In this document: piece by piece, positions 11,198 to 45,781 of the stretch
Layout: each line of letters opens with the position of its first letter
Numbering within the stretch: the stretch's first letter is position 1
From: Paenibacillus sp. FSL W8-0186
Lineage (GTDB): Bacteria; Bacillota; Bacilli; Paenibacillales; Paenibacillaceae
Direction: 5' to 3'
DNA length: 64,000 bases
NCBI RefSeq assembly: GCF_037969765.1
Contig: NZ_CP150207.1
Location: forward strand, 2,590,001-2,654,000
Position numbers and translations under genes: made by a program
The notes under the pieces: model-generated
Seen by the model: the letters and a program-made list of their open reading frames with translations, nothing else
Told to the model about the DNA's origin: nothing
The model's database searches: none

Positions 11198-13948
<2,751 letters not shown>

Positions 13949-37475: not shown

Positions 37476-37660
37476 GAATATCATCCTGCCTTTTGAAAAA
37501 AGATTTGCAAAATATAGCATAATATCCTCAATAGTACCATGGAATTACATAGAAGTAACGAGGCAGCTGAAGTTTTTGAGCGAAAAAAGTCATTATTTGC
37601 TATTATTAATCCATATTAAAAGAGAGAGAGAAACTAATCGAGCCCGTAGGAGTGGTTGAA

Positions 37661-38887
37661 ATGAGCATATTGGAGACGATCCGCCAGCCGAAGCAGCGCA
37701 AGCTGCTGATGAGCGCGGGGCTGAGCTGGATGTTTGATGCGATGGATGTCGGCATGCTGTCATTCATTATCGCTGACTTAAGCCTGAAGTGGCAGCTGTC
37801 CCCTGAGCAAACCGGTCTGTTTACGAGCATTAATTCGATCGGCATGGTCTTCGGGGCGGCCATCGCCGGTTATATGGCGGACAAATACGGCCGAAAATCT
37901 GTGCTGCTATGGACGCTGCTGATCTTCTCGTTCGCGACAGGCTTGTCGGCCGCGGCCACCGGATTTGTGGTCCTGTGCATCCTTCGGTTTATTGCCGGCT
38001 TTGGCCTGGGAGGGGAACTGCCCGTTGCGTCGACGCTGGTGTCGGAATCGGTTCAGTCTAAGGATCGGGGGAGGGCGGTCGTGCTGCTGGAGAGCTTTTG
38101 GGCGGCAGGCTGGATTGCTTCGGCATTGATCGCCTATTTCGTGATTCCGAAATACGGCTGGCAAGCGGCCTTTATTATCGGCGGGCTGCCAGCGCTATAT
38201 GCCCTATATTTGCGCAGGGCAATCGAGGATCCGCCGAGATATACGAAGCAAACGGCAGAGAAGGGAAACCGGGCAGCGTCTTTTCGCCAGAGGTTCAAGT
38301 CCGTGTGGGCCAAGCCTCATCGCCGTGCGACGATCATGCTGTGGGTGCTCTGGTTTACCGTCGTATTTTCTTACTACGGTATGTTCCTGTGGCTTCCATC
38401 GGTTATGATGCTTAAAGGGTTCAGTCTCGTCAAGAGCTTTGAATACGTTTTGATCATGACGCTGGCCCAGCTTCCCGGTTACTTTACGGCGGCCTATTTC
38501 ATCGAGAAATTTGGCCGTAAATTCGTTCTCGTTCTCTATCTTGTGCTTACCGCTGTGAGTGCGGCATGGTTTGGCCTCGCAACTACGGAAGGCGCATTGA
38601 TCGCTGCCGGCATTTGTTTATCGTTTTTCAATCTTGGGGCTTGGGGCGGGATGTACGCTTATACGCCTGAGCTGTATCCGACCAGCGTACGGTCCACGGG
38701 CGTCGGGCTGGCGGCCTCGTTTGGCCGGGTCGGGGGCATACTTGCGCCATATATGGTCGGGATGCTAGTTGCCAGACATTATGAGATCGGGTACATTTTC
38801 GTAATCTTTTTTGTGACCATCCTCATCGGTGCGGCAGCTGTGCTGTGGCTGGGGACAGAGACGAAAGGCAAAGAGCTGGAGGATTAG
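37661..38887 (+). CDS. MFS transporter, sugar-porter/NiaP-like
   Basis: A 408-residue twelve-helix MFS carrier with the sugar-porter/aromatic-acid motifs: DAMDVGMLSF in helix 1, GYMADKYGRKSVLL between helices 2 and 3, RFIAGFGLGGELPV in helix 4, and PELYPTSVRSTGVGLA in helix 11. It resembles niacin transporter NiaP and related carboxylate carriers, but no riboswitch or vitamin gene supports that. ATG 37661 is preferred over GTG 37652 because GTAGGAG precedes it. Confidence 0.78.
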   Translation: MSILETIRQPKQRKLLMSAGLSWMFDAMDVGMLSFIIADLSLKWQLSPEQTGLFTSINSIGMVFGAAIAGYMADKYGRKSVLLWTLLIFSFATGLSAAATGFVVLCILRFIAGFGLGGELPVASTLVSESVQSKDRGRAVVLLESFWAAGWIASALIAYFVIPKYGWQAAFIIGGLPALYALYLRRAIEDPPRYTKQTAEKGNRAASFRQRFKSVWAKPHRRATIMLWVLWFTVVFSYYGMFLWLPSVMMLKGFSLVKSFEYVLIMTLAQLPGYFTAAYFIEKFGRKFVLVLYLVLTAVSAAWFGLATTEGALIAAGICLSFFNLGAWGGMYAYTPELYPTSVRSTGVGLAASFGRVGGILAPYMVGMLVARHYEIGYIFVIFFVTILIGAAAVLWLGTETKGKELED

Positions 38888-38942: not shown

Positions 38943-39641
38943 TTATAAACTTAACTGATGGTGGTGCAGCTCTTCTCCGGGCTTCAGTGCATGTCCTGTT
39001 ATGCCAAGCTTGCTGAGTTCGCTGACGAACAGATCGCCATCCTGCCGGATCAGACCGAAGGTATTATAATGAATAGGCACGACATGGCGGGCGCTGACCC
39101 ATTCCGCTGCGGTCAAAGCATCCTCCGGCCCCATCGTAAAGAAATCGCCGATCGGGATAAAGGCCAAATCGACCCGGTGGCGCGTGCCAATCAGCTGCAA
39201 GTCGGTGAACAGAGCCGTGTCTCCAGCGTGATAGATGGTGAACCCATTCAGCTCCAGCAATATCCCCGCGGGATTTCCAAGATAGACATTCGCGCCGTCT
39301 ACCTCTACCGAGGAGCTGTGCAAGGCCGGAGTGAATTTCAATTTACCGAACGGAAACGTGAAGGAGCCGCCAAGATTCATGCCCGTCGTTTCCAGTCCTT
39401 TGGCTGCAAAATAGTTCGCTAGTTCCACAACGGCAATGATCGGACACTGATTGTTGCGAGCAATGGCCTCGGCGTCGCCGATATGGTCGGAATGGCCATG
39501 CGTCAGCAGTACGAAATCGGCCTCAACCTCTTCAGCGGAAACTGTGGCGACCGGGTTGCCCGTCAGGAACGGATCGATGATCAGCTTGTGTTCGCCAGTG
39601 TCGATGTGAACGGTAGAATGTCCTAAATAGGTCAGCTTCAT
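38943..39641 (-). CDS. Metal-dependent hydrolase, UPF0173/YtkL type
   Basis: A 232-residue metallo-beta-lactamase-fold hydrolase of the UPF0173 (YtkL) group. The metal site THGHSDHIGD is at residues 47-56 (H48, H50, D52, H53), with AGDTALFTD and HVVPIHYNTF supplying further ligands. Family substrates are poorly known. ATG 39641 is chosen because GAGGTGAT precedes it and the protein starts with the typical MKLTYLGHS; the longer in-frame form has no site. It is convergent with the MFS gene. Confidence 0.88.
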   Translation of the reverse strand: MKLTYLGHSTVHIDTGEHKLIIDPFLTGNPVATVSAEEVEADFVLLTHGHSDHIGDAEAIARNNQCPIIAVVELANYFAAKGLETTGMNLGGSFTFPFGKLKFTPALHSSSVEVDGANVYLGNPAGILLELNGFTIYHAGDTALFTDLQLIGTRHRVDLAFIPIGDFFTMGPEDALTAAEWVSARHVVPIHYNTFGLIRQDGDLFVSELSKLGITGHALKPGEELHHHQLSL

Positions 39642-39805
39642 GAATATCACCTCAATAAATAGTCGAATCCCTACTAAATTATAACTGACTTGGGCACTAG
39701 AGTCACATTTCAACTAATTTATGCCAAAATCATAAAGGATAGTAAAGGATAGTATTGTATTCGGGACTCGAACATGCTACGTTTTGAAGCGAGAGGGGGA
39801 GCAGA

Positions 39806-40447
39806 ATGAGCACTGCGTTTGAGCAACTGAAACAAGAGAGGATCATCGCCATTCTTCGCCATGTGCCTGATGAACAGGCAGACGGATTGATTGCGGCTTT
39901 GGATCGTGCTGGAGTAGTGTTTGTGGAGGCTACGCTGAACAGCGATGGCGCTTTAGGCATGATTTCGCGCTGGCGCGAGCAGTATGGCGACCGGATGCGT
40001 ATCGGAGCCGGCACGGTCCTGGATGTGAACATGGCCAAGGAGGCTGTGTCCGCAGGGGCAGAATATCTAATCGCCCCGAATTTGGATGAAGCTGTCGTGA
40101 ACTATGCGCGTGAACAATCGATTGACGTTTATCCAGGCGCAATGACGCCTAGCGAGATCGTCAGAGCCTGGAATGCGGGAGCAACCGCAGTAAAAATATT
40201 TCCTATGGCCTCCATGGGGCTCGCCTATTTACGCGAAATTCGGGCTCCGCTTAGCCATATTCCGATGATCGCGACCGGGGGCGTCCGGCTGGATAATATT
40301 CAGCAGTTTATTCAGGCAGGAGCGACCGCGGTCGGACTTGGCGGAAGCATCGTCAACATGGATCTCGTAAAAGAAGGCCGCTTTGATGAAATCGAGCGGA
40401 ATGCAGCATTGCTCGTACAGGCAGCCCGGCGGGCTGACGATAAATGA
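39806..40447 (+). CDS. eda: KDPG/KHG aldolase
   Basis: Class I aldolase of 213 residues that splits 2-keto-3-deoxy-6-phosphogluconate or 4-hydroxy-2-oxoglutarate. It has IIAILRHVPDEQADGLIAAL at the N-terminus, the catalytic glutamate in FVEATLNS, and the Schiff-base lysine in ATAVKIFPMASMG; GGVRLDNIQQFIQAGATAVG is the phosphate site. The start ATG 39806 follows GAGAGGGGG. No KDG kinase or other Entner-Doudoroff gene is adjacent, so it could serve uronate or hexonate catabolism from elsewhere. Confidence 0.9.
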   Translation: MSTAFEQLKQERIIAILRHVPDEQADGLIAALDRAGVVFVEATLNSDGALGMISRWREQYGDRMRIGAGTVLDVNMAKEAVSAGAEYLIAPNLDEAVVNYAREQSIDVYPGAMTPSEIVRAWNAGATAVKIFPMASMGLAYLREIRAPLSHIPMIATGGVRLDNIQQFIQAGATAVGLGGSIVNMDLVKEGRFDEIERNAALLVQAARRADDK

Positions 40448-40532: not shown

Positions 40533-42833
40533 TTACGGAATGGGCCAGCTTACGGTCACTGTAGTGGATCGCGGGTGATCGTAAGCGCTTGCCCAGTAGT
40601 AATCGCCCGAGAGAACTCGCTGCGGCCAGAAGCCGACTTCTCCGGCGGCGTCAGGCAATGCTTCCGAATGGGCGTACAGCATACCGCTTGCATCAGGCGC
40701 TAGTTCGACGTATTTGCCTCCATTGAAGGTGAAGCGCCCGTAAACTCTGGCGACGATTTGTTCACCTGTTTCGTAATCGCATACTTTTAGCGTCACCTTT
40801 GAACGCGTACCCTCGCGGGCGATATTCATTCCGCTAATGATCATCGGGCGGAGGCTTGAGCTGGAGGTCGTGGCCGAAGCGACTTCAGAAGCGGGACCGA
40901 CGTTGCCGCTAATGTCTTTGGCCGCAATCTTGTAATAGTATGTCGTATCAGGCAGCAGGCCGCGGTCTTTATAGGTCAGGTTGCGGGACTGGCCAGCCAT
41001 GTTGGCGGAGTCAGGTTCGAAATCGGGCTCAGTGCTGCGGTAAATGACGTATTCCTCAATATCCGAATCGTCGAATGCCCTGCCGTATCGGAGGATAATG
41101 CTCTGGTAGTCGAAGGCATCGGCGGATGGCTGTTCGCTCACGGCGGTCGGCGGAGTCACATCTTCAGGCGTTACTGCCCACTTTACTCCGCCTGGCCCCC
41201 AAGCTGAAGGCAGCCAGCGAATCGAATCATAATGATGCATGGCGATGCCTCCGAAGGCGGGATTCCCGCTGAACCAGGCATAGACCTTATCCAGCTCGCT
41301 CTCCATATATGTCCGGCCCTCCTCCCGGAAGGTAATGGTTTCCGGGTCTCCGCTGTTGGCAATATCGAGCGTTTCGACACCGATCACGACTGAATTCGGC
41401 TTGCCGATCAAATTGGCATAATCGATTTCGCCTTGAGCATGGGCGATGATTCCGGCGCTGCCTTCGGCGCTATCGCGATAGTCCATGATTGTAATATAAT
41501 CGCTCATGTCCTGAATATGCTCGGACAGCCATTTCGTTTGTCCGTTCCACGTAATATCTTTGGCCGGGTCGTTGCTGTCAAACCATCTGGGGATGGCCGG
41601 GCCGAACGGCAAGGCGATCCCAGCAGTATCTCTGCGAGCTATTAGCTGTTCCATAATATCGAGATACTGAAGCTGAACCGAGGGTTTTTGCAATCTAAAG
41701 TCCGGCAGGATATACGGTTCGATGTCTACGTTTACGCCGTCGAATTGCTCGTTAGCAGCTGACGACAGGTTGTAGTTTATCACCTTTTCCATTTCACGGA
41801 TCGCCAGCTCGTGATAGGGAGTTAATGCTCCGAAATAGGGAGGGACCGTACCACCAGCGATGCAGGCATGGACTTTAAAGCCGTTATCGTGGGCCCAGGC
41901 TACGAATTCCCTTACTTTGCCGGGTTCATCCTCCAGGATGTCGATGCCTTCATATGGGAATACGCCCAGGTAGAAGGTCGTTACCGAATCGGAGTCGAAG
42001 GTATCCGTATCGTCTGCAAAAGCCTTAAGAGCGCTGCGCGATCCTGGATTGAGGAATAAATTATAGGCGGCTTTTTCCCAAATCCATATGGCCCGGTCCT
42101 GCCGTTCCAAAACCATCTCTTCCGGAATCACTTCGCCGTTCTTTACGTATACGGTCAAGCTGCGGCCGACATTCCCGAATTGGTCGATAGCTCTGGCCTC
42201 GATGCTTGAGGTGCGGTCTGGAGCCGAATCGGCATCCCACATATACTCGTAGTTCTCCCCGGAACCGCTCGCGGCATTCCATGAACCGCCGTTCAACCTG
42301 ACTTCAACGGTTTGCACAGGATTTAAAGCATAGACGGATAAGGCTACGGATATTTGTCCTTCGACGAGGGAGCCGTCAAGCGGCTGATCAATGCGTACAA
42401 GGGGAGGGGAGGAGCCTGGATTATCCACCTCGATCCGTTTGACCGGGGTGGTTACTCCGTATCTGGTAACGCTGTCCAGTCCACGCGCGACGAGGTTGAT
42501 CTCGCCGTGGTACCGGCTGGTGTCCAGCTCGGCATGCCATGTGCCCGTCTCGGTTCCGCTCAAATTGTTCATGTGCGTATCGAGCTGTTCCCGCCCGTTC
42601 ACGATCAGCTTGATATCGTAGACATCCGTATAATGCCCAGAAATGATAACCTGGCCTGCTTCTACTTGGGCCCCATCGCTATGGGAATCGATCGTGATTT
42701 GAGAAACAGCCCGGGCTGCCGGAAGCTGATGAACGGGGAATAACGGCATAATACCGACGACGAGCATCATGACCAGCCATTTGGATAGCAAAGGGAGGAC
42801 GCGTGACTTCCTGCCTGTCGCTTGACATGACAT
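40533..42833 (-). CDS. Secreted multidomain protein with GH18-like TIM barrel (putative glycoside hydrolase)
   Basis: A 766-residue exported protein. It has a signal peptide (~1-43, ending PAARA), N-terminal Ig-like beta domains (~45-240, ITIDSHSDGAQVEAGQVIIS and RIDQPLDGSLVEGQISVA), a TIM-barrel (~245-560), an FN3 domain (~575-665, DISGNVGPASEVAS) and a C-terminal beta domain. The barrel has FDGVNVDIE (364-372), matching the GH18 pattern DGxxxDxE with D370/E372 as the likely catalytic pair, then MDYRD (450-454), like the GH18 MxYD. I do not recognise it as a described family. ATG 42833 is chosen after GAGAGGG; a perfect cre box lies 45 bases upstream. It shares the barrel with the next gene upstream. 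Confidence 0.7.
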   Translation of the reverse strand: MSCQATGRKSRVLPLLSKWLVMMLVVGIMPLFPVHQLPAARAVSQITIDSHSDGAQVEAGQVIISGHYTDVYDIKLIVNGREQLDTHMNNLSGTETGTWHAELDTSRYHGEINLVARGLDSVTRYGVTTPVKRIEVDNPGSSPPLVRIDQPLDGSLVEGQISVALSVYALNPVQTVEVRLNGGSWNAASGSGENYEYMWDADSAPDRTSSIEARAIDQFGNVGRSLTVYVKNGEVIPEEMVLERQDRAIWIWEKAAYNLFLNPGSRSALKAFADDTDTFDSDSVTTFYLGVFPYEGIDILEDEPGKVREFVAWAHDNGFKVHACIAGGTVPPYFGALTPYHELAIREMEKVINYNLSSAANEQFDGVNVDIEPYILPDFRLQKPSVQLQYLDIMEQLIARRDTAGIALPFGPAIPRWFDSNDPAKDITWNGQTKWLSEHIQDMSDYITIMDYRDSAEGSAGIIAHAQGEIDYANLIGKPNSVVIGVETLDIANSGDPETITFREEGRTYMESELDKVYAWFSGNPAFGGIAMHHYDSIRWLPSAWGPGGVKWAVTPEDVTPPTAVSEQPSADAFDYQSIILRYGRAFDDSDIEEYVIYRSTEPDFEPDSANMAGQSRNLTYKDRGLLPDTTYYYKIAAKDISGNVGPASEVASATTSSSSLRPMIISGMNIAREGTRSKVTLKVCDYETGEQIVARVYGRFTFNGGKYVELAPDASGMLYAHSEALPDAAGEVGFWPQRVLSGDYYWASAYDHPRSTTVTVSWPIP

Positions 42834-42877
42834 CGTGAATCCCTCTCTTTCCGCGGGATCAACACCGCTCCAATATT

Positions 42878-42891
42878 TGTAAACGTTTACA
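42878..42891. promoter_or_regulatory. Perfect CcpA cre box upstream of the 766-residue secreted protein
   Basis: TGTAAACGTTTACA is a perfect palindrome and matches TGWNANCGNTNWCA at every base. It lies 45 bases before the start of the minus-strand gene, so glucose repression through CcpA is expected. Confidence 0.75.
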
Positions 42892-42964
42892 GCATCCATT
42901 GTACCGGTTGAAAATTTAGAAGGGCAACGGCCTTAAATCGACCATATTACAGCTCAGGATATCC

Positions 42965-43023
42965 AAAAAAAGCTCTTTCCGCTTTTGGATGAATATGGAT
43001 CATTCCAAAATTGGAGAGAGCTT
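42965..43023 (-). terminator. Intrinsic terminator of the 303-residue secreted protein gene
   Basis: On the minus strand a stem of AAGCTCTCTCC / GGAAAGAGCTT (one mismatch) extends through TTTTGG/CCAAAA with a small internal loop, and a run of T follows. Confidence 0.65.
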
Positions 43024-43063
43024 CAGAGTAAGACAGGCTTTAATGTTTAAGATGAACAGCAGA

Positions 43064-43975
43064 CTACGGCTTGCTGCGTTGGGCCATTTCCATCATTCCC
43101 ACGAGGTCATGAACGGCGATGCCCGCATACGAGCTGTAAGCTCTGCCGAGCTGATCCAAATAGAGCAGCTGTGCGTTCATATAATCATATCCTTCCTCGT
43201 AGAAGGATACCTGATTGCCTTCCGAGGAATACTTGGTCTCAACGCCGGTATATATGCGCTTGTTCAATTTCTCCGCCTCCTGGAGCTCCTCTTTGGCCAG
43301 TTTAATTACGGCATCGGCGCTATCGCGGTAAGACATCAGGGTTACAGAATCAAATTGGGAGATCATCCAGGAGCTTAATGACATTTCTGAATCGCTTGCC
43401 GCATATTTATCTAACCAGAAAGGCAAATCGGCAGCGATCGGCAGCTTCAGGTTCGCGGCTTCCTGAATGAGATACTTTACATTGGACTGCCACTGCTTAA
43501 TAACGTTATTGATGTCGTTCTTCCACTCGGGCAAAAGATAAGGTTCAATATCCACATGAACGCCCGTAAATTGTTCCTCTTCAGCAGCTGTCGCTTGATA
43601 GCTGCGAATCCAGTTCATGAAGCTTGTCAGTTGAGAGCGGTTAGATTCCAGCGCCCAATTCGGGGCTCCGTTCAAGGCATGAACCTGGATGCCGAGCGCA
43701 TTTGCTTTGTAGATGAATTGCTTGTAATAAGGGATGTCTACACGTGTGCTGATTTGCAAATAAATCATGCGAATGCCTTCTGAAGCGGAAAATGCCAGAA
43801 GCTCTTCGGTTTGCGTTTCGATCAGTTTCGTATTCCACAGCCATGTGGCTTTGGGAAGCTTGCCGGTTGCAGCGGCCTTGGTTGCAGAGGGGGCAGTAAT
43901 AGTACCGAATATGATGATGCTTGCGATGAGCAAGAAGAAGAGACGCCGGAGGGAAGGATTTGCAGGTAAACTCAT
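43064..43975 (-). CDS. Secreted single-domain GH18-like TIM-barrel protein (paralog of the 766-residue gene)
   Basis: A 303-residue exported protein with a signal peptide (~1-34, ending ATKAA) and one TIM-barrel. It contains FTGVHVDIEPYLLPEW (D142, E144), MSYRDSA (214-220), TGVETKYS (E246) and GIAVHDL (H289, D290). These same motifs, in the same order, appear in the much longer neighbouring protein, which shows common ancestry. The first catalytic-motif aspartate of GH18 is Thr here. ATG 43975 follows AAGGAG. A role in polysaccharide or peptidoglycan breakdown is inferred; the substrate is unknown. Confidence 0.68.
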   Translation of the reverse strand: MSLPANPSLRRLFFLLIASIIIFGTITAPSATKAAATGKLPKATWLWNTKLIETQTEELLAFSASEGIRMIYLQISTRVDIPYYKQFIYKANALGIQVHALNGAPNWALESNRSQLTSFMNWIRSYQATAAEEEQFTGVHVDIEPYLLPEWKNDINNVIKQWQSNVKYLIQEAANLKLPIAADLPFWLDKYAASDSEMSLSSWMISQFDSVTLMSYRDSADAVIKLAKEELQEAEKLNKRIYTGVETKYSSEGNQVSFYEEGYDYMNAQLLYLDQLGRAYSSYAGIAVHDLVGMMEMAQRSKP

Positions 43976-44494
43976 GTTGTCCAGCTCCTTAATAATAAAT
44001 TATTCACAAAAATAGGACTATGGTGGCGGGAAGATGAAATGATTTCATGATATGCTGTTACTTCCAGGCCCTACCTCCTATTTTTTCTTTACCGTATGAA
44101 AAATACATGAAAGAATTGGTTATAAAAGCACTATATCATATAAATTGATAATTTTGTCGAAATTTGTCTAGTTCTTTAGTATGATTTTTCAAAATTATCG
44201 TTTCATTTGCACATTTTTTGGGTATTTATTCAGGTTTGAGTGAAGTAATTTGTCAGCGAAAATAGGATGACATACATATAGCCAGTGCACGGTAAAGAGG
44301 CTGTACGCCTATAGGGAACTTGTTCCTGTTAACGTTCGCGGGGTATTTTGTAAGCGATTACAAATGGGCGGGAATGCTTAGATGCCGATTTAGGCATGCA
44401 AATCACTGTTTCAAAACCGATATATTGGCTAAACTATTATTAAAAATTTAAATATATAGGTATAAAAGACCTCGGAAAAAGGAGCGATCCTGGC
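43976..44494. other. Long AT-rich intergenic region
   Basis: 519 bases with no gene I can support. It holds a cre box (44349-44362). An AT-rich section at 44080-44220 probably contains the leftward promoter for the 303-residue secreted protein. The stretch 44281-44345 is more GC-rich and could fold, but I recognise no known RNA motif. The right end carries a likely ribosome site for the 51-residue ORF. Confidence 0.4.
44349..44362. promoter_or_regulatory. CcpA cre box
   Basis: TGTAAGCGATTACA matches the cre consensus at every position. It lies 146 bases before the 51-residue ORF and 374 bases from the start of the divergent secreted-protein gene, so either could be its target. Confidence 0.65.
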
Positions 44495-44884: not shown

Positions 44885-45781
44885 GTGACAGAGGATTTGA
44901 AGCTTCATACTGAATCAGAATATACGGATGACCTGACGCTGCCGCCAGGTATAAAGATCGATGATCCTGTCCGCATGTATTTGAAGGAAATCGGCAGAGT
45001 CCCGCTCTTGTCAGCGGAAGAAGAAATCGAACTGGCGAAGCGAATAGAGCAAGGGGACGAAGAAGCCAAACGCAGACTGGCCGAAGCCAATCTGCGTCTC
45101 GTCGTTAGTATTGCCCGCCGATATGTCGGCAGGGGAATGGTGTTCCTCGACCTGATTCAGGAAGGGAACATGGGGCTTATTAAAGCCGTCGAAAAATTCG
45201 ATTTCAAGAAAGGTTTCAAATTCAGCACCTATGCTACATGGTGGATTCGCCAGGCCATTACAAGAGCCATCGCTGATCAGGCCAGAACGATTCGGATTCC
45301 AGTTCATATGGTAGAGACCATTAATAAGCTGATCCGCGTTTCCCGCCAGCTTCTTCAAGAGATCGGGCGTGAGCCAACTCCGGAGGAAATCGCCAAGGAA
45401 ATGGATCTTACCCCGGAAAAGGTTCGGGAAATCATGAAGATCGCCCAGGAGCCTGTTTCATTAGAGACGCCAATTGGGGAAGAAAATGATTCCAATCTGG
45501 GTGATTTTATTGAGGATCAGGATGCACTTGCACCGGCGGATGCTGCAGCGTACGAATTGCTGAAAGAGCAGCTGGAGGAAGTGCTGGATACGCTGACCGA
45601 ACGTGAGGAGAATGTGCTTCGTCTGCGTTTCGGGATGGATGATGGACGGACGCGTACGCTTGAAGAGGTAGGCAAGGAGTTCGGCGTGACCCGGGAACGG
45701 ATCAGACAAATCGAGGCCAAAGCGCTTCGTAAGCTGAGACATCCAAGCCGCAGCAAGCGTTTAAAAGATTTTATGGAATAA
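44885..45781 (+). CDS. RpoD-like (sigma-70 group 1/2) sigma factor lacking region 1.1
   Basis: RNA polymerase sigma subunit of 298 residues. Regions: 1.2 (~26-60, [20 protein letters not shown]), 2 (~64-134, including [22 protein letters not shown]), 3 (~145-215), 4 (~225-290, [19 protein letters not shown]). It has no acidic region 1.1, and is ~75 residues shorter than a Bacillus SigA; the gene is not near dnaG as rpoD normally is. Promoter recognition residues look like the primary sigma, so it could read overlapping promoters. It starts at GTG 44885 after GGGTGGGGG. It may be a second RpoD (group 2), but a standard house-keeping role cannot be excluded. Confidence 0.85.

Follow-up and report, generated by a model that had tools for sequence, protein, structure and literature searches.

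The locus and its two genes

We analysed a 64,000-nucleotide stretch of Paenibacillus sp. FSL W8-0186 (contig NZ_CP150207.1, positions 2,590,001 to 2,654,000), hereafter the window, in which two adjacent genes between positions 40,533 and 43,975 encode a long and a short protein with a common barrel domain. Sequence comparison and structure prediction place the two in an unnamed barrel family, GH18-like but outside GH18, and they are most likely glycosidases tied to an exopolysaccharide that the cells make themselves. An earlier note, made from the letters alone, had described them as exported TIM-barrel proteins that may form a new glycosidase family; its observation is confirmed and its interpretation partly supported. 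In window coordinates, the features of the pair are as follows.

40533-42833, minus strand: long gene, 766 amino acids; signal-like N-terminus, Ig-like module (Big_7), barrel, FN3-like module and a C-terminal region of unknown kind, in this order
42195-42404, minus strand: Big_7 Ig-like module, long protein residues 144-213 (Pfam PF17957, E 1.8e-10)
41214-42101, minus strand: barrel domain, long protein residues about 245-540 (family profile E 3.2e-65; eight main strands in the model)
41712-41744, minus strand: FDGVNVDIEPY, strand 4 motif of the long protein with D370 and E372
41472-41486, minus strand: M450-D-Y-R-D454 after strand 6, long protein
41373-41375, minus strand: E487 at the end of strand 7 (GVET), long protein
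40866-41105, minus strand: FN3-like module, long protein residues 577-656 (Pfam fn3 15.4 bits at 577-653, cut-off 25)
43064-43975, minus strand: short gene, 303 amino acids; signal-like N-terminus and one barrel
43103-43864, minus strand: barrel domain, short protein residues 38-291 (AlphaFold2; profile E 4e-110, the sequence itself being in the profile)
43538-43570, minus strand: FTGVHVDIEPY, strand 4 motif of the short protein with D142 and E144
43322-43336, minus strand: M214-S-Y-R-D218 after strand 6, short protein
43238-43240, minus strand: E246 at the end of strand 7, short protein
43109-43111, minus strand: H289 at the end of strand 8, short protein

Both open reading frames (ORFs) were confirmed as the note had given them, at 766 and 303 residues, and both N-termini resemble signal peptides by eye and hydropathy, in line with export. 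The mechanical ORF of the long gene reaches an upstream ATG at 42899 (788 amino acids); we favour the ATG at 42833 (766 amino acids) as the probable start because GAGAGGG, which resembles a ribosome-binding site, stands directly before it and the signal-like N-terminus begins there. By sequence, the two proteins are homologous to each other (BLASTP E = 8e-21, 30% identity across 226 amino acids). They have the motifs VDIEPY.LP, M-x-YRDSA and GVET in common, in the order the note had reported, and D370, E372 and E487 of the long protein are equivalent to D142, E144 and E246 of the short one. Both genes look to be under purifying selection: the ratio of non-synonymous to synonymous substitution (dN/dS) against orthologues is 0.06-0.14 overall, with 0.06-0.08 for the short gene (three comparisons) and 0.07 and 0.14 for the long gene (two comparisons), dS exceeding 1 in three of these five comparisons.

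Pfam bears out the Ig-like module that the note had proposed for the long protein; the proposed FN3 module is weaker and falls under the Pfam cut-off. PDB FN3 domains match it from E 0.009, it is weakly like the FN3 of chitinase A1 (E 0.1), and it is the best-scoring stretch of the long protein in NCBIfam. For the catalytic domain, no Pfam or NCBIfam model was found for either window protein at E up to 10, as the note's statement that no named family fits would lead one to expect, and the short protein has no Pfam match above any cut-off. The two genes are not the whole set: the host genome holds six domain copies in five genes, namely the pair, a 413-residue protein with a copper-amine-oxidase-N domain, a 321-residue paralogue in a polysaccharide cluster and a 620-residue protein with two barrels.

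A sequence search of the PDB gave a single barrel relative, 10yv_A, deposited as 'Putative GH97 from Cellulomonas fimi' (E 8.1e-11 with the short and 6.5e-10 with the long protein). Our 30-sequence family profile A2 covers it at positions 20-259 of 259 (E 1.7e-26), and by sequence the chain belongs to the same family as the window pair. It has in common with the family D-x-E-P, P-x-W, the strand-7 Glu and the strand-8 region, but carries Ile at the R217 position and Gln at the 289 position. The depositors' label is doubtful, because Pfam gives the 235-residue stretch of 10yv no match at E up to 10; no Pfam GH97 model matches either window protein or that stretch at the same threshold. A text search of open-licence PubMed Central (PMC) articles returned no paper on 10yv, and the family assignment gives this orphan structure a function hypothesis.

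Fold, conserved residues and relation to GH18

The AlphaFold2 model of the mature short protein, built with ten sequences, is a confidently predicted (beta/alpha)8 barrel, with eight strands and helices in barrel order (mean predicted local distance difference test score, pLDDT, 92.5; predicted template modelling score, pTM, 0.90). In protein numbering, which is model numbering plus 35, strand 4 ends at 141 and is followed by D142 and E144, strand 6 ends at 214 and is followed by R217, strand 7 ends at E246 and strand 8 at H289 (model positions 106, 179, 211 and 254). All five residues thus lie at or just beyond strand C-termini, and the D/E motif sits at the C-terminal face of a predicted TIM barrel, which is what the note had asked of the fold. 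The long protein is poorly modelled overall (pLDDT 49.9, pTM 0.44); its barrel region is partly confident, with eight main strands and two short extra ones, and E487 and H533 end strands 7 and 8.

Residue conservation was counted over 113 rows, comprising 112 unique family domains and 10yv (114 before duplicates were removed). The domains come from loci fetched for holding the family (E 1e-3, 180 residues), so close relatives weigh heavily in the counts. D142 is kept in 109 rows, E144 in 110, P145 in 110, W187 in 109, R217 in 104, E246 in 101 and H289 in 108, and a strand-6 Tyr in 101. The family signature is D-x-E-P on strand 4, Arg after strand 6, Glu on strand 7 and His on strand 8.

Most departures at 142, 144 and 246 fall in two-barrel proteins, comprising L016:7193-9055 and nine orthologues (L133, L135-L139 and L158-L160; L denotes a fetched locus). 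The N-terminal domain has E246 replaced in all ten (by Asn in nine, by Asp in one), and the D142R rows (three) and E144K rows (three) of the set all belong to these domains as well, so that six of the proteins have also lost D142 or E144 from the first barrel. All ten C-terminal domains retain D142, E144, R217, E246 and H289. The two domain sets form well-supported tree groups (100/99), and no neighbour common to all three of their locus groups was seen by eye. The joint losses favour D142, E144 and E246 acting together, and from their sequences the two-barrel proteins are possibly binding-plus-catalytic pairs. The remaining departures at 142, 144 and 246 are Glu at 142 in L091 and Asp at 246 in L098 and L140.

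Profile and fold comparisons place the family near, but outside, GH18. Pfam PF00704 (GH18) is not listed for either window protein at E up to 10, and the host genome (G000) holds seven PF00704 places at E<=0.001, with none of the six family places among them; the family thus resembles GH18 but is not filed there. With hhalign, the 113 rows reach 95.7% locally and 96.8% globally (E 3.5e-10 over 233 columns, a single-comparison value uncalibrated against a library) against 20 non-chitinase-type GH18 domains, which we take to be SleL-type; D-x-E pairs with D-x-E, and IMaYR with IMaYD. An initial set of three such domains gave 93.7% and 95.3%, and 11 chitinase-type GH18 domains 10%. The further comparison profiles were GHL10 (90.6% locally across 80 columns, 50.9% globally), DUF4015 (0.9%) and GH5 (eight domains, 1.4%). 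Against the 20 GH18 domains, GHL10 reached 95.5% and chitinase-type domains 99.8%, so that the distance of the family from GH18 is roughly that of GHL10. A Glu on both strand 4 and strand 7, a mark of GH5 and clan A, is present in the model alongside the low GH5 score. GH114 gave one match in 39 genomes.

Foldseek returned 282 PDB matches of the short model at E<=0.001, of which the 50 listed all have <=15% identity. The top six are chitinases, which we take to be GH18 (best 5y2c, E 6.8e-07, template modelling score, TM, 0.42). Others listed are the putative alpha-L-fucosidase BT_0435 (TM 0.60), the PgaB glycosidase domain 6au1 (TM 0.58), a GH168 fucanase (TM 0.56-0.57) and an O-GlcNAc hydrolase (TM 0.52), besides methylenetetrahydrofolate reductases and isomerases; 10yv is absent among the PDB matches listed (library to April 2026). 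On the strength of the model, these are matches at the level of the barrel. Among the matches listed from the PDB and viral libraries, the closest fold is an uncharacterised protein of the giant virus Terrestrivirus (BFVD A0A3G4ZKF2; TM 0.85 by query length, E 2.2e-15, 17% identity).

The remote GH18-type resemblance seen by the note thus holds up in both comparisons, whereas its proposed placement in clan K goes beyond these results. With GH18 the family has in common the predicted barrel, D-x-E after strand 4, Tyr after strand 6 and chitinase fold matches at TM about 0.4-0.6. It differs in carrying Arg (217, in 104 of 113 rows) rather than Asp after the strand-6 Tyr, Glu on strand 7, and His289 (108 of 113) rather than Trp on strand 8, at 10-15% identity; the Tyr-Asp after strand 6 and the strand-8 Trp, which we take to be GH18 features, are not found in the family. 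The motif claims need adjusting. FDGVNVDIE of the long protein, with D370 and E372, fits exactly the PROSITE-style GH18 pattern, [LIVMFY][DN]G[LIVMF][DN][LIVMF][DN]xE, as the note stated. The leading Asp and the exact motif are limited to the long-protein clade (18 of 113 rows). FTGVHVDIE of the short protein breaks the pattern twice, at T137, the Asp-to-Thr change already reported, and at H140, where the pattern has D/N.

Predicted polysaccharide-synthesis clusters of the paralogues

The family is found in 21 of 39 relatives (E<=1e-5), 67 of 148 Paenibacillaceae genomes (E<=1e-20) and 13 of 398 Bacillota genomes, in 9 of 267 genera (E<=1e-6). Among named genomes, the nearest one found is Paenibacillus woosongensis (98%). 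Plasmid records gave eight matches with the short protein as query and nine with a paralogue, one of them from Devosia, an alphaproteobacterium. Their annotations, hypothetical protein, Ig-like protein or amidase, can now be set against a function hypothesis. Phage records held no match at E<=0.01, and in IMG/VR eight pattern matches yielded no confirmed member, and a Planococcus member as query gave none. G242:C1:10728-10964 is a short family remnant with two stop codons, perhaps a decayed copy.

The tree unites the long proteins in a single group of 18 (100/99) and puts the short protein in an 18-row clade (96/88), no row of which has a polysaccharide cluster in its locus. Short and long genes are adjacent in ten rows of this clade (the window, L046, L047, L108, L109, L111, L112, L116, L117 and L118) and apart in L048, L094, L100, L113, L114, L115, L154 and L155.

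The 321-residue paralogue of the host is the last gene of a cluster, after genes for a 747-residue protein without a family, a HEAT-repeat protein, a glycosyltransferase of family 2 (GT2), a 269-residue protein with a C-terminal receiver domain and a nucleotide-sugar dehydrogenase. All six kinds, the 747-residue protein standing for a type of about 745 residues (P745), occur together in 23 of 91 family-bearing loci fetched around family members, L047 and L110 being one place. Each of the 23 full loci has a GT2 as putative polymer synthase; the window pair is in no such cluster. The HEAT protein (E<=1e-20) is held by 42 of 148 Paenibacillaceae genomes, all 42 of which also hold the family, compared with 25 of the 106 genomes without it (Fisher p 1e-19, uncorrected for shared ancestry), and in the 42 genomes a distance of 3.7-6.8 kb separates each HEAT gene from a family gene. 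Among the 39 relatives, a sample that shares genomes with the 148, the family occurs in 20 of 20 with the HEAT protein and in 1 of 19 without. We predict this to be a synthase-type exopolysaccharide cluster.

Many cluster-linked copies have a single hydrophobic N-terminal stretch running almost into the barrel, anchor-like by eye and hydropathy, and from their sequences these paralogues look membrane-anchored. The anchor-like start is not seen in L057, L098 and L140, and is ambiguous in L049, L051 and L058. The 745-residue protein is conserved (L015:14075-16318 and 25 homologues). It has no notable match in Pfam, NCBIfam or the PDB and was rejected as a known barrel (hhalign 26.7% to GH5, <2% to the other five profiles). 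The receiver protein at L015:10510-11319 starts with about 150 residues of unknown kind before its response-regulator receiver domain; Pfam finds no DNA-binding domain in it. Four HEAT matches (G488, G516, G528 and G551) contain one internal TAG each.

Related arrangements occur elsewhere. In Planococcus L087 and Bacillota G201 L090 the family gene comes first, followed by genes for VTC, DUF4956, CotH, a 689- or 713-residue protein, HEAT and GT2. In Devosia it stands amid histidine-kinase parts, receiver proteins, TPR, HEAT and GT2, and in Priestia near sugar transferase and glycosyltransferase genes; the Bacillus badius, Pontibacillus and P. polymyxa plasmid members have no such polysaccharide-synthesis neighbours. 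Some clusters include amino-sugar genes: GlmS lies between dehydrogenase and family gene in L098, GlmS and a GlmU-like gene lie there in L140 (where HEAT and GT2 are off the piece), GlmM and GlmU-like genes follow the family gene in L097, and GlmS is near it in L050 and L051.

These genes give hints on the nature of the polymer. In NCBIfam, the GT2 of L015 matches PgaC/IcaA best (132.7 bits, cut-off 422.3), then an XrtG-associated glycosyltransferase and NodC. The L015 dehydrogenase exceeds the cut-off of the general nucleotide-sugar dehydrogenase model; with the specific models it reaches 261 and 252 bits (UDP-ManNAc), 208 bits (UDP-GlcNAc) and 160 and 153 bits (UDP-Glc), all under the equivalog cut-off; that of L097 likewise prefers UDP-ManNAc and UDP-GlcNAc types over UDP-Glc types. 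GlmM and GlmS pass their NCBIfam cut-offs, and the GlmU-like protein reaches 283 bits (cut-off 450), matching the first half of GlmU only. Because of these GT2 and dehydrogenase preferences and the presence of GlmS, GlmM and GlmU-like genes, the sequences suggest an N-acetylhexosamine/hexosaminuronate polymer. The idea that R217 binds uronate and occurs together with the dehydrogenase was dropped, since MNYYRD of Planococcus aligns ambiguously.

Interpretation and comparison with known systems

From homology, predicted fold, residue conservation and the gene linkage of the paralogues, all directly computed, we infer catalysis, substrate, anchoring and role. Our reading, at a probability of about 0.5, is that both proteins are secreted glycosidases with a (beta/alpha)8 barrel, belong to a family without a name and act on an amino-sugar/uronate polymer of the cell's own making, the pair itself being offshoots outside the cluster. 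The likely acid/base would be E144 of strand 4, equivalent to E372 in the long protein. D142 and E246 would complete the site. Catalysis would then be either substrate-assisted on an N-acetyl sugar, as in GH18, or a classical double displacement in which E246 is the nucleophile; the former is slightly favoured, as the pathway linked to the family speaks for amino sugars. The ancestral job of the family is probably to cut polysaccharide made by the cell itself. The anchored-looking paralogues would act with the predicted synthase-type cluster on a polymer of an N-acetyl-hexosamine and its uronic-acid derivative, and the seemingly freely secreted window pair may serve to release this polymer, or one like it, to remodel it or to recycle it. 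As the paralogues stand in clusters apparently making slime polysaccharide, the pair may trim or recycle the cell's own coat. At family level we hold a more tentative view, which we place somewhat short of even odds: that these proteins form an unrecognised family of glycosidases devoted to a so far undescribed Paenibacillaceae exopolysaccharide of synthase type, probably of N-acetylhexosamine and hexosaminuronate, with related clusters in Planococcus and Devosia, and with duplicated, freely secreted copies such as the window pair serving as scissors for the cell's own matrix. The conserved Paenibacillaceae cluster would allow product and glycosidase to be tested together, and polymer-specific glycosidases, if new, would be useful biofilm reagents.

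Several points weigh against this reading. We know of no measured activity for any family member. The window pair itself lies outside the polysaccharide cluster, and 25 of 106 Paenibacillaceae genomes without the HEAT protein still carry the family. The linkage centres on a single clade (91/87, not starred), with further cases on scattered branches, of which several are long, and shared ancestry is left out of account in the Fisher p-values. Relaxed constraint, rather than a catalytic role of the residues, could lie behind the losses in the two-domain proteins, and two cluster-linked members (L098 and L140) carry Asp for E246. The aldolase and MFS transporter genes beyond the end of the long gene would also suit uptake of foreign uronate. 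The further features around the pair are the following.

37652-38887, strand opposite to the pair: MFS transporter gene
38943-39713: metallo-beta-lactamase-fold hydrolase gene
39806-40447, strand opposite to the pair: KDPG/KHG aldolase gene (TIGR01182, 164.4 bits, cut-off 156)
42878-42891: cre-like palindrome TGTAAACGTTTACA, 44 bases before the 766-residue start
44885-45781, divergent, upstream of the short gene: RpoD-type sigma factor gene, 298 amino acids

The aldolase and long genes lie tail to tail, about 85 bases apart. An aldolase gene is also found at L046, L047, L108, L109, L111 and L115, and is not in the fetched stretches of L112-L114 and L116-L118. A 2-keto-3-deoxy sugar acid aldolase would suit a uronate-containing product, self-made or foreign; it is one neighbour, on the other strand. 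The sigma factor matches positions 80-370 of 370 of the RpoD model and is without the N-terminal part. The cre pattern has five strand-wise matches at three places in the window (shuffled mean 0.22); the further sites are at 44349-44362, between the short and sigma factor genes, and at 11262-11275.

Clearly less probable, and in our view unlikely, is that the pair scavenge an outside polymer such as chitin or a plant or fungal polysaccharide, with the long protein docking by its Ig-like and FN3-like modules under catabolite control. The signal-like N-termini, the Big_7 module, the FN3-like module with its weak likeness to that of chitinase A1 and the GH18-like fold would suit this role, as would the nearby aldolase and MFS transporter genes, the aldolase being kept at six other unique loci; these two genes are, however, on the opposite strand and therefore cannot share an operon with the pair. 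The cre-like palindrome would suit it too and is indeed present where the note had reported a perfect cre box, but it is kept in only 3 of 18 unique long-gene loci (the window, L046 and L108); the remaining 15 are without it in a scan of 350 bases upstream of and 120 inside the mechanical ORF start, where far-upstream ORF starts could hide sites. It was found at none of the 13 unique short-gene loci among those listed (the clade has 18 rows). Catabolite control was thus rejected as a family trait. Moreover, the genome already holds seven GH18 places, and the paralogues are linked to synthesis genes.

A role as cell-wall or cortex glycosidases acting on peptidoglycan or teichuronic acid, like the GH18 proteins SleL/YaaH, is improbable. 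The 96.8% hhalign result with non-chitinase-type GH18 and the presence of the SleL structures 4s3k and 4s3j among the fold matches point that way; the resemblance is not specific, because GHL10 also reaches 90.6% locally, and Pfam finds no LysM or other wall-binding domain in the pair, whose paralogues are linked to a polymer synthase. Least probable are non-catalytic sugar-binding barrels, such as chitinase-like lectins or inhibitors: the rice xylanase inhibitor OsXIP (9k1m) is among the fold matches and N-terminal domains of two-domain homologues have lost acidic residues, but the window pair retains D142, E144, R217, E246 and H289, and every decayed domain adjoins one that retains them.

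The preferred reading, glycosidases for the cell's own polymer, has parallels in PgaB, PelA, Ega3 and PslG, which we take together as polysaccharide-operon glycosidases. Like these, the family paralogues are glycosidase-like barrels encoded with a GT2 synthase, and the PgaB domain 6au1 is among the fold matches of the short model. Unlike them, the family is without a deacetylase domain, and no sequence match to them was found. The cluster also differs from pga and pel in having the HEAT, receiver and 745-residue proteins. Our search of open-licence PMC papers, a set apart from subscription papers and preprints, found no description of the family or the six-gene cluster among the papers listed.

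PgaB is reported to cleave deacetylated poly-N-acetylglucosamine (PNAG; PMC5933820), and Pel to be processed by a glycosidase (PMC9894940). The zetaproteobacterial stalk (sfz) cluster was rejected as the same system, as its components differ in the published passages. A set of CotH, polyphosphate polymerase and DUF4956 is reported as accessory to Gram-positive Pel loci (PMC7112168), and NELoc-2 of C. perfringens is reported as a VTC/CotH/HEAT/glycosyltransferase locus (PMC2879425, PMC11677781). By these passages, NELoc-2 and the Gram-positive Pel accessory set resemble L087 and L090 in VTC, CotH, a protein of about 690 residues, HEAT and a glycosyltransferase. The passages on NELoc-2 name a polysaccharide deacetylase and no family member; a 348-residue hypothetical protein stands next to VTC. 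The same row of genes in Planococcus L087 and Bacillota L090, together with the published annotation of NELoc-2, suggests that NELoc-2 is a polysaccharide-synthesis locus.

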